Below are positions 14,861 to 24,873 of a DNA stretch of 46,165 nt, piece after piece. The notes beneath the pieces were generated by a model, which saw only the letters and a list, made by a program, of their open reading frames with translations, was not told where the DNA came from and ran no database searches. Source of the stretch: a virus; the IMG/VR virus record IMGVR_UViG_3300027796_000287, positions 1-46,165 of that record; one strand, given 5' to 3'. The position numbers were made by a program, and so were the translations under genes. Position 1 is the stretch's first letter. The number at the start of each line of letters is the position of its first letter.

Positions 14861-15151
14861 GTCACCAACCCCCTGTGCGGTTGGTGACGGGTTGGTGACG
14901 GAAAAAGTCAATCCGCTTCAATAGCTTGCACCTGTCTGTCACCAACCTCGGACTGTCACCAACGGGGTAAGAACCTGTGAGGGGTTGGAAAAATTTACGC
15001 ACCAAAGGTTGCCGATGTATTGGATAGCGCCCTCCATGATGCGCTTTTTATTTTGGCTGAGAGAGCGTTCACCCCCCGTTGGTGACATGTGACAGCTAGG
15101 CCAGAACGGCATCAACGACCTGATTCTGAGGGACAATTCCCGTCACCAACC
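14861..15151. repeat. Iteron-like cluster: seven GTCACCAAC repeats
   Basis: The 515-bp gap 14783-15297 holds no credible gene but has seven copies of GTCACCAAC(C): plus orientation at 14861, 14939, 14956 and 15142; minus orientation at 14880, 14891 and 15077. Five keep the tenth base; those at 14956 and 15077 differ there. AT-rich stretches lie among them (around 14986-15000 and 15041-15056). The arrangement, next to the primase-helicase, resembles an origin with initiator sites; an operator array is the alternative. Confidence 0.7.
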
Positions 15152-15765: not shown

Positions 15766-15959
15766 GATGGCATCCGCCCGGATACGGTGGCGAGCGGCGC
15801 GATCCCGAAGAGGTGAAGCGGGACGGCTGGCTGGAGCGTGGTGTCCTGGTCATCGCCGAAGACGATGACCGCCTAACTTGGCCCGAACGCGAACTGATCC
15901 GCCAGCTGGGCGCCAAGCTCTACGGCAAGCGCCCGTCCCAGGAGGTGCATCATGACTGA
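15762..15959 (+). CDS. Small conserved phage protein
   Basis: 65 aa, coupled to the resolvase by ATGA and to the next gene by an 8-bp overlap. Sequence starts MRWHPPGYGGERRDPEEVKRD and continues with VLVIAEDDDRLTWPERELIRQLG and a basic end. It is highly charged, without Cys or membrane segment. The tight coupling on both sides argues it is real. I recognise no function. Confidence 0.75.
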   Translation: MRWHPPGYGGERRDPEEVKRDGWLERGVLVIAEDDDRLTWPERELIRQLGAKLYGKRPSQEVHHD

Positions 15960-16386
15960 CCTCCGCTGGACTCCTTCCCTGGTGGAAGAGCGACTGGCCG
16001 AAGCCGCCGATACCCTGCGCAGGCTGCCCGAGGCCAAAGTCCAAGGGCATGCCAGCACCTGGCCGCCGTACATCCAGGAATGCTGGTCGGCGGAAGACGT
16101 CACGCTCCGCCGCCCGCCACCCTCCGCCGCCGCCATCACCCGCATGGACGAAGCCCTGCCGTGGCTGCGCCTGCTCGATCCCACCGACGCCCGCATCGTC
16201 TGGCTGCGGGCCAATGGCGAACCCTGGAAGGTGGTGTGCTGGAAGGTCGGGCTGGCCCGATCCGCCGCCAACGAGCATTGGCTATTCGCGCTGTGCATCA
16301 TCGCCTGGCAACTGAACGGGCGGCGGGTGCCCCGCAACAAGTCGCGGCGGCAGACCATCACCGACATCCAGGCCGCGCTACGATGA
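15952..16386 (+). CDS. DUF6362 family helical protein
   Basis: 144 aa, matching DUF6362: an N-terminal helix (LVEERLAEAADTLRRLP), WPPYIQECW, then RMDEALPWLRLLDPTDARIVWLRANGEPWKVVCWKVGLARSAANEHWLFALCIIAWQLNG, which has the look of a sigma-region-4-like helix-turn-helix, ending in a basic RNKSRRQT tail. In similar phages such proteins sit between replication and packaging genes and may be late regulators. Here it precedes the second repeat cluster, which could be its target; that link is inference. Confidence 0.8.
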   Translation: MTDLRWTPSLVEERLAEAADTLRRLPEAKVQGHASTWPPYIQECWSAEDVTLRRPPPSAAAITRMDEALPWLRLLDPTDARIVWLRANGEPWKVVCWKVGLARSAANEHWLFALCIIAWQLNGRRVPRNKSRRQTITDIQAALR

Positions 16387-16402
16387 GAACCGGAGCGCAA
16401 AC

Positions 16403-16430
16403 TGTCCGGCGGACACTTTTCGCTCGGACA
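16403..16430. promoter_or_regulatory. TGTCCG dyad plus third half-site
   Basis: TGTCCGGCGGACA (16403-16415) is a perfect 6-bp-arm dyad, and CGGACA recurs at 16425-16430. It lies just after the DUF6362 stop at the start of a 417-bp gene-free stretch (16387-16803), fitting an operator. Confidence 0.45.
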
Positions 16431-16632
16431 GAAGCCGGGCCGTTGGGTCATGATGAACCCATGCTGGCGAGAGGCGGCGAACACGATCATCAAATGATCC
16501 GCCGCCCGCCGCTGGCGAAAGGATAGAACAAGCCAAGGCGAGGCGGCGCGAAACATCGCGGGTCCTCCCTGTCCGATGCGCTATGCGGGCGGCAACAGCG
16601 CCGGACTTCGCTAGCGACAGCCCGAAAATCAA

Positions 16633-16798
16633 GGTTTCCACTCCGGTTTCCAGTTTCCAGCCCAAAGGCGCGTTTGTCCCAAGGACAGCGCGCCTTTCGC
16701 GTTTCCGGCTGACTGGAAACCGAGGTGGAAACCACTGCCGGAAACCTGACCCGGTTTCCACCGGCAGGTTGCCAGTTTCCACCTGATCCAGGTTTCCA
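16633..16798. repeat. GTTTCCA repeat cluster upstream of the Dcm gene
   Basis: Eight exact copies of GTTTCCA or its complement: plus at 16634, 16646, 16653, 16754, 16775 and 16792; minus at 16714 and 16726. Two GTTTCCG variants lie at 16701 (plus) and 16739 (minus). Many successive copies are 12-13 bp apart, near one helical turn. The array stops five bases before the methyltransferase ATG and surrounds a long hairpin (16664-16697). Confidence 0.72.
16664..16697 (+). other. Extended hairpin inside the GTTTCCA array
   Basis: AAAGGCGCG (16664-16672) pairs with CGCGCCTTT (16689-16697); inside it TGTCC (16675-16679) pairs with GGACA (16683-16687) around a CAA loop. Total 14 pairs with a small internal bulge. 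The short T-run makes it a poor terminator, so a protein-binding cruciform or RNA element is more likely. Confidence 0.55.
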
Positions 16799-16803
16799 CC
16801 GCC

Positions 16804-18522
16804 ATGCTGGTTGCTTCTCCCGAGCCGGGCGCCCCGGCGCTCGGCCCGATGCCGCTGGTCTACGGCTCGGTATGCAGCGGGATCGAGGCGGCGACGGCGG
16901 CGTGGGAGCCGTTGGGCTGGCGAGCGGCATTCTTCGCCGAGATCGAACCGTTTCCTTCGGCCGTGCTGGCGCACCGCTATCCCACCATCCCGAATCTCGG
17001 TGACATGACCGCCATCGACGGTTCGGCGTGGCGCGGGAAGATCGACGTGCTGGTGGGCGGGACGCCCTGCCAAGCCTTCTCGGTGGCGGGCTTACGCAAG
17101 TCGCTGGACGACTCCCGTGGCAACCTTGCTCTCAAATTCGTGGAACTCGCCGATGCCATCGACCCAGCTTGGATTGTTTGGGAGAACGTCCCCGGAGTCC
17201 TGTCCACCCGCGACAATGCCTTCGGATGCCTTCTGGGCGGACTGGCCGGAGAAGATGGTCCGGTTGTCCCGCCAGGGAGAAAATGGTCGGACGCTGGTGT
17301 TGTCGTTGGACCCGCGCGCACAGTCGCGTGGCGGGTGCTCGACGCCCAATATTTCGGCCTGGCCCAACGCCGCCGTCGTGTGTTCGTTGTCGCAGGTGCT
17401 GGAGACCGGGCCGATCCCGTCCAAGTACTTCTTGAGCGCGAAGGCGTGCGCCGGGATCATCCGCCGCGCCGAGAAGCGGAACAAGCTGTTGCCCCCACGC
17501 TTGATGCTCGCGCTGGCCGAAGCGGCGAAACGTCATTCGCCACCAGCGGCGGACTGATCGCCGAGGCGTTCGGCGGCAACAACACCTCCGGCCCCATCGA
17601 CGTCGCCACCGCGCTTAATGCCTGCGCCTCGGCCAGTGGGCGAATGGATTTCGAGAGCGAGACCTTCGTCGCCACCACCTTGCGGGCACGCGACCTGTCC
17701 CGTGGCGTGGACAGCGACTGTACCGACACGCTGATCGCCCACACCCTGCGGGCCGAGTCGAACCTCGCTCACCGGCCCGACATCGACACCCTGGTCACCC
17801 ATTCCCTACGGGGCGAAGGTTTCGATGCTTCCGAGGATGGGACCGGACGAGGCACGCCGATGGTGCCTGTGGCGATCCCCATTCAGGAGGCCGGTGCCCG
17901 CACGGGAATCAGCACTACGGACGTGCGTGCCGGAATCGGCATCGGCGGTGACGGCGACCCCATGTTCACCTTGCAGGCGGGCAAGCAGCACGCCGTGGCG
18001 TTCAACCTGCGTGGCCGCGACGGTGGGGCGCAGGCTGAGATTGATGCCGACAACCTCGCCAGCCTACGTGCGGCCAGCGGCGGCTCTAGCCGCAGCTATG
18101 TGGCCTTCGCCCAGAATCAGCGGGACGAAGTTCGGACCTTGGATGTTGCTGGCGCCTTGGCGGCGGAGCCGGGAACCAAACAGCAGACCTATGTCGCTTT
18201 CGACTGTAAGGCCGGCACCGGATTCCAATCAGTCGCGGCCGACGGCGTTACGCCGACCCTGCGGGCCATGTCGGCCCTGGGCCGCGACAATGGCGGCGGC
18301 CAATTGGCGGTCCAGCACGACCTGTCGGTGCGCCGCCTGACGCCCCGCGAATGCGAGCGCCTCCAGGGTTTCTCCGACGATTACACCCAGATCCTCTGGC
18401 GCAAGAAGGCCGCCGAAGATTGTCCCGATGGCCCGCGCTACCGGGCGCTGGGCAACTCCATGGCCGTGCCGGTGATGCGCTGGATCGGGCGCCGCATCCA
18501 GGCGGCAGGACAACGGCCATGA
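16804..18522 (+). CDS. C5-cytosine DNA methyltransferase (Dcm type)
   Basis: 572 aa. Motif I (YGSVCSGIEAATAAWEPLGW), motif IV GGTPCQAFS with catalytic Cys89, motif VI ENV at 127-129, motif VIII QRRRR, then a long central region (about 225-490) and motifs IX/X (RRLTPRECERLQGF; RALGNSMAVPV). The central region contains repeated modules built around VA-x-TLRA and ETFVA/TYVAF segments, typical of large phage-encoded target-recognition regions. It probably protects phage DNA from host restriction. The gene starts right after a repeat array, and its stop overlaps the next gene (ATGA). No cognate restriction enzyme is adjacent. Confidence 0.92.
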   Translation: MLVASPEPGAPALGPMPLVYGSVCSGIEAATAAWEPLGWRAAFFAEIEPFPSAVLAHRYPTIPNLGDMTAIDGSAWRGKIDVLVGGTPCQAFSVAGLRKSLDDSRGNLALKFVELADAIDPAWIVWENVPGVLSTRDNAFGCLLGGLAGEDGPVVPPGRKWSDAGVVVGPARTVAWRVLDAQYFGLAQRRRRVFVVAGAGDRADPVQVLLEREGVRRDHPPRREAEQAVAPTLDARAGRSGETSFATSGGLIAEAFGGNNTSGPIDVATALNACASASGRMDFESETFVATTLRARDLSRGVDSDCTDTLIAHTLRAESNLAHRPDIDTLVTHSLRGEGFDASEDGTGRGTPMVPVAIPIQEAGARTGISTTDVRAGIGIGGDGDPMFTLQAGKQHAVAFNLRGRDGGAQAEIDADNLASLRAASGGSSRSYVAFAQNQRDEVRTLDVAGALAAEPGTKQQTYVAFDCKAGTGFQSVAADGVTPTLRAMSALGRDNGGGQLAVQHDLSVRRLTPRECERLQGFSDDYTQILWRKKAAEDCPDGPRYRALGNSMAVPVMRWIGRRIQAAGQRP

Positions 18523-22373: not shown

Positions 22374-22946
22374 ATGGGATTATCCGTCCGCGAATACGCG
22401 CGCAGGCGTGGCGTCAGCCATACCGCCGTGCGCAAGGCGGTGCTGGCGGGACGGATTCCGCAGGAACTCGACGGCACCATCGACCCGGTCAAGGCCGACG
22501 CGGCCTGGGATGCGCAGACCGACCCGGCCAAGCGCCCCGCAGGCAAAGCGTCCCCGATTATCGCCACGGCAGCACCCCCGCGTGAGGCCGCAATGGCCGC
22601 TCCGGTCCCCGCCGCCGCTGGGGGCGGCAGTTCGTTCGATGGCGGCAAAGCCACCGGGGCAAATTTCGCCCAAGCCCGCACCATGCACGAGGTGGCCAAG
22701 GCCCAGCGTGCCCGCATCCAGGTGCAGCGCCTCAAGGACGAGGTGATCGACCGCGCCAATGCGCTGGCCCTGGTGTTCAAGCTGGCCCGGCAGGAGCGTG
22801 ACGCCTGGGTGACCTGGCCCGCCCGCGTGGCCGGACAGATGGCGGCGGAAGCCGGGATCGACCCGCACACCATGCAGGTTCTGTTGGAAACCCACGTCCG
22901 GGCGCATCTGAATGAGCTTGCCGACATCAAGCCGGAGTTCCGCTGA
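22374..22946 (+). CDS. Small terminase subunit (Nu1-like)
   Basis: 190 aa. Residues 1-45 are a helix-turn-helix (SVREYARRRGVSHTAVRKAVLAGRIPQ), the DNA-recognition domain of Nu1-type small terminases. An Ala/Pro linker (55-85) follows, then a long helix (ARTMHEVAKAQRARIQVQRLKDEVIDRANALALVFKLARQERDAW) and a helical C-terminus that would contact the large subunit. It recognises the packaging site. Its 3' end overlaps the large-subunit start by 35 bp, as is common for terminase pairs. First gene of the late operon. Confidence 0.85.
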   Translation: MGLSVREYARRRGVSHTAVRKAVLAGRIPQELDGTIDPVKADAAWDAQTDPAKRPAGKASPIIATAAPPREAAMAAPVPAAAGGGSSFDGGKATGANFAQARTMHEVAKAQRARIQVQRLKDEVIDRANALALVFKLARQERDAWVTWPARVAGQMAAEAGIDPHTMQVLLETHVRAHLNELADIKPEFR

Positions 22947-24873
22947 CTTCGACGGCGCGGAACAGATCCTGGCGGCTTGGTGCGACGGAATGCGGCCCGA
23001 CCCGCTGCTGACCGTGTCGGAATGGGCCGATCTCCACCGCATGCTGTCCAGCCGGGCCTCGGCGGAACCGGGCCGGTATCGCACCGCCCGCACGCCCTAT
23101 ATGCGCGACATCATGGATGCGCTGTCGCCCACCAGCCCGGTGCAACGGGTGGTGTTCATGAAAGCCGCGCAGGTAGGCGCCACCGAGGCGGGCTGTTGTT
23201 TCATCGGCTTCGTCATCCACCATGCGCCGGGGCCGATGCTGTGCGTCCAGCCGACGGTGGAGATGGCCAAGCGCGCCTCGCGCCAGCGCATCGACCCGCT
23301 GATCGACGAAAGCCCTGCCATCCGCGAGCGGGTGAAGCCCGCCCGGTCGCGGGACGCCGGCAACACCATGCTGTCGAAGGACTTCCCCGGCGGCACCCTG
23401 GTGCTGACCGGCGCCAACAGCGCGGTGGGCCTGCGCTCCATGCCCGCCCGTTACCTATTCCTCGATGAGGTCGACGCCTATCCGGCCTCGGCCGACGAGG
23501 AGGGCGACCCGGTGGCGCTGGCCGAGGCGCGGTCGCTCACCTTCGCCCACCGACGGAAGGTGTTCCTGGCCTCGACGCCGACGATCCGCGGCATGTCCCG
23601 CATCGAGCGGGAATTCGAGGCCAGCGATCAGCGCCGGTTCTTCGTGCCGTGCCCCCATTGCGGGGCCATGCAATGGCTGAAATTCGACCGGCTGCGCTGG
23701 GATAAGGGCCTGCCTGGCAGCGTCCGTTACGTCTGCGAAGCCTGCGACCAGGAGATCGCCGAACACCACAAGTCCACCATGCTGGCCGTCGGAGAGTGGC
23801 GGGCCACCGCCACCTCGACTGATCCTACCCTGGTGGGTTTCCACATCTCGGCGCTGTATTCGCCGCCGGGCTGGCAGTCGTGGCGGGATATCGCCCGGCT
23901 GTGGGAATTGGCCCAGGGGAATGACGATGCCCTGCGGGTGTTCAAGAACACCGTGCTGGGCGAAACCTGGGTGGAAACCGGTGAAGCGCCAGACTGGCAG
24001 CGCCTGTATGACCGCCGCGAAACCTGGGCCAACGGCACTGTGCCCGCTGGTGGGCTGTTTTTGACCGCTGGGGCCGACGTGCAGAAGGACCGCGTCGAGA
24101 TCGACGTCTGGGCCTGGGGCCGCGGCCTGGAAAGCTGGTTGGTTGATCACATCGTTATCGATGGTGGGCCGGAACATGCCGAAACCTGGACGGCGCTGGA
24201 GGAGATCCTCGGTCGTACCTGGCTGCACGCCAGCGGCGCGGCCCTCAAGATCGCCCGTCTGACCATCGACACCGGCTACGAGGCCTCGGCGGTGTACGCC
24301 TGGGGCCGCAAGATGGGTGTCGGCCTGGTCTCGCCGATCAAGGGCGTGGAGGGTTTCAACCGCTCCAGCCCGGTGTCGGGGCCGACCTATGTGGATGCCA
24401 CCGAAGGCGGCAAGAAGATCCGCCGTGGTGCCCGGCTGTGGACGGTGGCGGTGTCCACCTTCAAGACCGAAACCTACCGCTTCCTGCGGCTCGATCGCCC
24501 CACTGACGAGGAACTGGCCGATGGTGTCCGTTTCCCGGCCGGAACGGTGCATCTGCCATCGTGGGCGGACTCGGAGTGGTGCAAGCAATTCGTGGCCGAG
24601 CAGTTGGTGACGGTGAAGAACCGCCGCGGCTTCTCGAAACTGGAATGGCAGAAGCTGCGCGAGCGCAACGAGGCGCTGGATTGCCGGGTCTATGCCCGCG
24701 CTGCCGCCTGGATCGTCGGCGCAGATCGTTGGCCCGAAGCCAAGTGGCGGGATCTGGAGGCACAGATTGGCCCGTCCGAGACGGTTCAAACTGAAGAAGC
24801 CCAGGCGGGCCAAATCCGCCGCTCCCCAACCCGCCGTTCCCGGCGGGTTTTTCATTCCAGCTATATGGGCTGA
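22912..24873 (+). CDS. Terminase large subunit (GpA family)
   Basis: 653 aa. The ATPase has a variant Walker A around KAAQVGAT (84-91) and Walker B FLDEVD (D185, E186). A zinc ribbon follows (Cys247/Cys250, Cys275/Cys278), as in lambda gpA homologues. The nuclease domain has GADVQKDRVEIDVWAWG and TIDTGYE acidic sites. Together with the small subunit it cuts and packages DNA, making cohesive ends if it behaves like lambda. The last 40 residues are an Arg/Ser-rich tail, and the final coding stretch contains a perfect terminator-like hairpin, which is unusual. Confidence 0.93.
   Translation: MSLPTSSRSSADFDGAEQILAAWCDGMRPDPLLTVSEWADLHRMLSSRASAEPGRYRTARTPYMRDIMDALSPTSPVQRVVFMKAAQVGATEAGCCFIGFVIHHAPGPMLCVQPTVEMAKRASRQRIDPLIDESPAIRERVKPARSRDAGNTMLSKDFPGGTLVLTGANSAVGLRSMPARYLFLDEVDAYPASADEEGDPVALAEARSLTFAHRRKVFLASTPTIRGMSRIEREFEASDQRRFFVPCPHCGAMQWLKFDRLRWDKGLPGSVRYVCEACDQEIAEHHKSTMLAVGEWRATATSTDPTLVGFHISALYSPPGWQSWRDIARLWELAQGNDDALRVFKNTVLGETWVETGEAPDWQRLYDRRETWANGTVPAGGLFLTAGADVQKDRVEIDVWAWGRGLESWLVDHIVIDGGPEHAETWTALEEILGRTWLHASGAALKIARLTIDTGYEASAVYAWGRKMGVGLVSPIKGVEGFNRSSPVSGPTYVDATEGGKKIRRGARLWTVAVSTFKTETYRFLRLDRPTDEELADGVRFPAGTVHLPSWADSEWCKQFVAEQLVTVKNRRGFSKLEWQKLRERNEALDCRVYARAAAWIVGADRWPEAKWRDLEAQIGPSETVQTEEAQAGQIRRSPTRRSRRVFHSSYMG
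24828..24852 (+). terminator. Terminator-like hairpin inside the terL 3' end
   Basis: AACCCGCCG (24828-24836) and CGGCGGGTT (24841-24849) pair over a TTCC loop, and the T-run continues to 24852. It lies 19 bp before the terL stop, within the coding sequence, so it would cut late transcription before the portal gene unless antitermination operates. Confidence 0.6.

Follow-up and report, generated by a model that had tools for sequence, protein, structure and literature searches.

A predicted lambda-type cos site with an amplified cosB array whose repeats covary with the small terminase recognition helix

Introduction

What is the function of a dense array of GTTTCC repeats placed immediately ahead of a phage methyltransferase gene? 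The window studied here, a virus record of 46,165 bases, carries such an array in the gap after a DUF6362 gene. A preliminary description of this DNA had offered three readings: a second replication origin, a multimeric operator for the modification genes, and a packaging or cos-like signal.

To the left of the array lie genes for a Cas4-like nuclease, an SF1 helicase, a VapE-type primase-helicase, a RuvC-like nuclease and DUF6362 (15952-16386, plus strand). To the right lie the cytosine-5 methyltransferase (16804-18522, plus strand; variable cargo, and the first gene past the predicted cos site in the window) and genes for a PAPS-reductase-like protein, a ParB/N4-methylase fusion, DUF6998, the small terminase TerS (phrog_57; 22374-22946, plus strand), the large terminase TerL (22912-24873, plus strand), and head and tail proteins. 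TerL matches PF05876 (in the 1e-102 range) and PF20454 and is therefore of the gpA type of lambda.

Results

Organization of the repeat array

GTTTCCA occurs eight times within 16633-16798, on the plus strand at 16634, 16646, 16653, 16754, 16775, and 16792 and on the minus strand at 16714 and 16726. The variant GTTTCCG occurs twice (16701, plus; 16739, minus). None of 1000 dinucleotide shuffles of the 166-bp array segment contained a 7-mer in eight copies, and the highest count was 6. The orientations define three blocks, + + + (+) / - - - / + + +. Block 1 has three plus-strand repeats (16633-16659) and is followed by the plus-strand variant at 16701-16707. Block 2 has three minus-strand repeats (16714-16745, comprising 16714-16720, 16726-16732, and the variant at 16739-16745). 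Block 3 has three plus-strand repeats (16754-16798, with starts at 16754, 16775, and 16792) and a degenerate copy, GGTTGCCA, inside it at 16767. Blocks 1 and 2 are separated by a plus-strand hairpin at 16664-16697 (AAAGGCGCG..CGCGCCTTT, with an inner GTCC/GGAC stem) that has 9+5 stem pairs and a DNA folding energy of -14.7 kcal/mol (z -5.0). Its outer stem is invariant across ten relatives. A terminator scan made no call at this hairpin, whose role may be that of a terminator or of a shape element that stands in for an IHF bend. The final repeat ends at 16798, and the methyltransferase ATG is at 16804, 5 bp on.

These counts bear out the preliminary description in its eight exact and two variant repeats, its 14-pair hairpin, and its five-base gap to the ATG. 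Its other structural statements held in part. The start-to-start spacings are 12, 7, 48, 13, 12, 13, 15, 21, and 17 bp, so the 12-13 bp interval applies to four of the nine steps and not to the rest. The repeats of the proposed unit, 16633-16798, are real, but the functional unit appears to begin about 75 bp further left, at 16560.

The gap aligns with known virion ends

Comparison of this gap among relatives, a check proposed with the preliminary description, revealed that gap and array are conserved in ten viral contigs that share the DUF6362 gene. Their shared left part reads GG(G/T)TCCTCCC...TATGCGGG(G/C)GGC..CAGCGCC...TTCGCTAGCG(A/T)CAG and is followed by the array. The array word is GTTTCCA in some contigs and GTTACCA, GGTACCACC, or GGCTACCACC in others, with all copies switching together. 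Two further features were seen beside this region. A perfect-ended inverted repeat, GGCGGCGAACACGATCATCAAATGATCCGCCGCC, lies at 16473-16506, upstream of the predicted cosQ, and most DUF6362 relatives share its core palindrome. In another relative (L014), a gene pair that reads from its sequence like an HTH/PIN toxin-antitoxin module is inserted between DUF6362 and cos.

In the phage collection, DUF6362 homologues were found only in the RcC cluster of Rhodobacter capsulatus phages, where the gene is the last of the linear record and thus the right-end gene of the virion genome. RcC phages have defined ends with 11-base 5' overhangs, determined from reads (PMC8601537). Their records end ...CTACGCTATGCG and begin GGGGGCGGAAGCGCG...GGGTTTCCACTTAAAGTTTCCACTTTGGGTTTCCAC, and the RcDormio terminus, ...CTACGCTATGCG^GGGGGCGGAAG followed by GGGTTTCCACTTAAAGTTTCCACTTTGGGTTTCCAC, is homologous in position to a cosN-like element of the window. 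This element (16582-16615, plus strand; TATGCG^GGCGGCAACAG^CGCCGGACTTCGCTAGCG) was located by homology to the RcC ends and by alignment with lambda GGGCGGCGACCTCGCGGGTTTTCGCTA. It begins TATGCG^GGCGGCAACAG^CGCC and is written GGCGGCAACAGCGCCGGACTTCGCTA when set beside lambda. Nicks are predicted at 16587/16588 on the top strand and 16598/16599 on the bottom strand, which would leave an 11-nt 5' overhang, GGCGGCAACAG, at 16588-16598. The sequence has CG at both predicted nicks (ATGCG^GG on the top strand, CGGCG^CT on the bottom strand).

GGGTCCT, which we take to be cosQ, is at 16560-16566 (plus strand), 28 nt ahead of the predicted top-strand nick. With a looser pattern, the distance from the cosQ start to the nick is 26-29 nt in 109/109 relatives; cosQ is known as a highly conserved 7-bp element (PMC4669245). 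The segment between cosN and the array (16599-16632, plus strand) was assigned to the place of the lambda I2 spacer by its position only. The three blocks begin at +47 (+), +128 (-), and +167 (+) from the predicted nick, and the block 1 repeats at +47, +59, and +66. In 105 of the 109 relatives, the first plus-strand repeat starts at +46 or +47, whatever its letters. Ten relatives seemed to have their first site at +23, but this was a false match inside TTCGCTACCG and was rejected. Lambda terminase measures 47 +/- 2 bp from R site to cut, according to the title of a study cited in PMC9026076. A fixed cut-to-repeat distance of about 47 bp is expected of a cutting signal and not of an operator or an origin.

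Gene order around the site was compared in several phages. Like the window, RcC phages (RcDormio, RcMeacham) have a DUF6362-like gene, cosN, and GTTTCCAC repeats, with TerS and TerL further on. In their case a ParB-like gene follows the repeats and then come TerS (helix SHTAVGKA) and TerL, near the left end of the record. Unlike the window, they have a smaller number of repeats, in a single orientation, ahead of the next gene and no methyltransferase beside cos, and their TerS is 43-45% identical. A search with the window TerS finds the RcC phages and AcaML1, in which cosN, three GTTTCCA-type repeats, and terS follow in direct succession. The terS gene lies downstream of cosB in the window at a distance of 5.6 kb, and directly adjoins cosB in AcaML1 and one further locus (L368); we did not require such adjacency for calling a site lambda-type. 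More distant TerS/cos pairs (L292, L319, L333, and L340) have the words GGTTGCCA, GGTTCAC, and GGGCACCACC right after a cosN of the same type.

Correspondence with lambda cos

The lambda sequence has GGGTCCT 30 nt ahead of the nick, then GGGCGGCGACCTCGCGGGTTTTCGCTA, and GTTTCC at 54 (+), 114 (-), and 156 (+). Its cosB is laid out R3-R2-R1 with R2 inverted (PMC9026076). R3, R2, and R1 each contain GTTTCC in the order +, -, +, which is the block order of the window, and blocks 1, 2, and 3 would thus occupy the R3, R2, and R1 positions. Changes at bp 56, 58, and 59 of lambda R3 affect packaging (PMC9026076), and these positions fall within the GTTTCC core. Both systems share GGGTCCT before the cut site, GTTTCC cores in +/-/+ order from about 47-54 bp past the nick, and a gpA-type TerL. 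The predicted cut of the window resembles that of lambda in its GC-rich letters, in the CG at either nick position, and in the TTCGCTA that follows, and it would likewise be staggered. They differ in repeat number (about ten in the window, three in lambda), in the R3-R2 interval (a conserved hairpin segment in the window, an IHF site in lambda), and in overhang length (11 nt predicted, 12 nt in lambda). N15 illustrates that IHF is not required in every lambda-type member. Unlike in lambda, terS in the window is 5.6 kb off behind modification genes, and its product belongs to another sequence family. By eye, its HTH pattern aligns gap-free to gpNu1 residues 1-26; Pfam Nu1 gave no match to the window TerS, and a TerS profile searched against PDB gave no link to the solved gpNu1.

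Taken together with the covariation described below, the anatomy, the homology to known virion ends, and the 47-bp spacing make it very probable that a complete lambda-type cos site occupies 16560-16798, with cosQ, cosN, and a multi-copy cosB whose repeats TerS would bind. The packaging option of the preliminary description is thus strongly supported. The cos site itself is of an already known kind; new here are the amplified cosB, the distance to terS, and the six-class covariation.

The cosB repeats could also double as a brake, with TerS at the last repeats repressing or delaying downstream early or late genes. In the window the repeats do overlap the start of the next gene, but such overlap is not general among relatives, and we regard this added role as unlikely.

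The repeat word follows the TerS recognition helix

TerS-alignment scans of viral and genome contigs, together with a cosN-pattern scan, yielded 109 non-redundant cos/TerS pairs. Their repeats have the form GGTT-N1N2-CACC, with N1N2 classes TC, AC, CG, TG, CC, and GC (for example, GGTTTCCACC versus GGTTACCACC versus GGTTCGCACC); more than two clustered copies are rare in random sequence. N1N2 follows the TerS recognition helix (SHTAVRKA, residues 15-22, in the window). It does not follow DUF6362, the genes in between, or the remainder of TerS. SHTAV(R/A) is paired with TC, SHVAV and SHVSV with AC, SDxAVR (SDAAVR, SDMAVR, SDTAVR) with CG, and (S/T)DTAVH with TG. Two pairings were found at one locus each: SHSAVR with CC mixed with TC, and SHTAVK with GC. 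There were no discordant pairs among the 109. At the level of the whole N-terminal segment, TerS of the GTTTCCA phages reads REYARRRGVSHTAVRKA, and that of the GTACCACC group reads RAYARHRG(V/I)SHVSVL(R/K)A. This covariation makes TerS, the Nu1-like protein of the preliminary description, the likely reader of the array. DUF6362, also suggested there as a binder, was rejected: the proteins of L010 (AC) and L011 (TC) are 97% identical, and their array words differ.

The match between repeat and helix might still be an artefact of joint inheritance as a single block or of shared phylogeny. AC accounts for most of the pairs, many pairs are closely related, and the 970 bp ahead of terS in the window, like its helix and array, resemble TC phages. 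However, neither the intervening genes nor DUF6362 track the class, which rules out linkage as the whole explanation. In the methyltransferase, PAPS, and ParB genes, AC phages and TC phages stand at equal distance from the window, and one relative (L196) is AC although its DUF6362 and RuvC are 97% and 96% identical to those of the window. When repeat class is mapped on a TerS-body tree built without the HTH, it needs 17 changes, which follow the helix. The window TerS is itself a mosaic: its body groups with AC phages (96% identity to L195 over 91 columns) and its helix with TC phages, and the array of the window is TC. In addition, a distant TerS lineage repeats the match of DTxxHK with TG. 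We therefore consider such an artefact improbable. Among independent pairs on well-supported branches, residue 17 and N1 agreed in 3/3 and residue 16 and N2 in 3/3; with so few independent pairs, the sign test was non-significant.

A prediction was recorded beforehand for 29 cos loci with unseen TerS, of which 18 records yielded TerS. All 11 full-length proteins had the predicted helix: six AC with His16 and Val17, three CG with Asp16 and Arg20, and two TG with Asp16, Thr17, and His20. Among eight distant loci of the far TerS lineage, four TG loci fit fully (DTxIHK); one TG locus has Arg20 and not His20, and the CG loci have Glu16, not Asp16, with Arg20. These departures indicate that the code is family-dependent. 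As read from these sequences, an acidic residue 16 seems to specify G generally, and the remainder seems to be context-dependent. A strict rule by which Thr17 specifies T was ruled out, since SDTAVRKA is paired with CG and SHTAVKKA is paired with GC.

We tentatively favor a modular packaging code in which residue 16 sets N2 (His for C, Asp or Glu for G) and residues 17 and 20 together set N1, with helix swaps and repeat rewriting switching specificity and separating co-resident prophages. For N1, the pairs point to Val for A, Thr for T in some contexts, and Ala, Ser, or Met with Arg20 for C. In the known specificity cases, as here, cosB letters and the TerS recognition helix differ jointly and cosQ and cosN stay constant. 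Those cases come from three phages and link residues 20 and 24 to bp 56 and 59. In the window family, residues 16, 17, and 20 vary with the two middle bases of the repeat, across six classes and more than 100 phages. In the lambda model, the helix end faces the R3 5' end (PMC9026076); the contact orientation that we infer here, in which the start of the helix points to the 3' portion of the repeat, is consistent with it. Our literature search, in a limited set of papers, found no earlier account of the repeat/helix relation.

Several classes can occur in one host genome. Magnetospirillum sp. SS-4 carries five such prophages (L195, L200, L202, L207, and L223) of classes AC and TC, and P. caucaseum carries three (L194, L208, and L211), also differing in class (AC, TC). 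Mixed cosB classes in one host would keep prophage packaging apart.

Operator and origin as less likely readings

The second option of the preliminary description, an operator controlling the downstream methyltransferase genes, draws on the final repeat lying 5 bp before the annotated ATG and on repeats overlapping the translation start region. However, array and cosN are kept where a ParB-like gene comes next (RcC and beta-proteobacterial phages), where terS comes next (AcaML1), and in a relative without most of the methyltransferase (L012). The repeat word also follows the terminase, and a scan limited to sigma-70-type promoters detected none in 16300-16900. Since the array persists without a methyltransferase gene, we reject an operator as its main function and consider this reading very unlikely.

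The gap that separates the primase-helicase gene from the RuvC-like gene contains an array of GTCACCAAC (14861-15150), probably an origin; the word of this array varies among relatives (CGTCCCAACC in L007, TTCCCAACT in L008, GTCCTACCT in L010, and TGGGCCACC in L011 and L012) independently of cosB class. A second origin of iterons at the GTTTCCA array, which short repeats, near-helical spacing, and this iteron-like array 1.5 kb off beside the primase-helicase gene could suggest, is extremely unlikely: the array sits at the virion ends of relatives, its word tracks the TerS helix and not a replication gene, and the nearby origin-like array switches its word independently, L011 and L012 sharing that word and differing in cosB class.

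Discussion

The cos reading suggests the following mechanism. The N-terminal helix-turn-helix of TerS would bind the GTTTCCA repeats in their R3(+)/R2(-)/R1(+)-like blocks, and the block at +47 would position TerL, the predicted cosN cutter, on cosN. TerL would then make staggered nicks in cosN, 11 nt apart. DNA would probably be packaged with its cosB-bearing end first, and cosQ and cosN of the next unit would end packaging. N1N2 would be the specificity bases, read by the start of the recognition helix through putative contacts of residues 16, 17, and 20. For lambda-type TerS, binding is very weak in vitro and genetics is needed (PMC6739421).

Packaging specificity of the lambda type has so far been studied in few phages (lambda, 21, and N15). 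Here, more than 100 natural TerS/cosB pairs are available, with several specificity classes and a fixed cut-to-site distance. Such pairs would allow cos sites and virion ends to be predicted from sequence, and would likewise allow predictions of terminase sharing among satellites or co-resident prophages. The protein-DNA code becomes testable by simple swaps. Covariation across more than 100 phages, as seen in their sequences, suggests that a readable code specifies the genome to be packaged.
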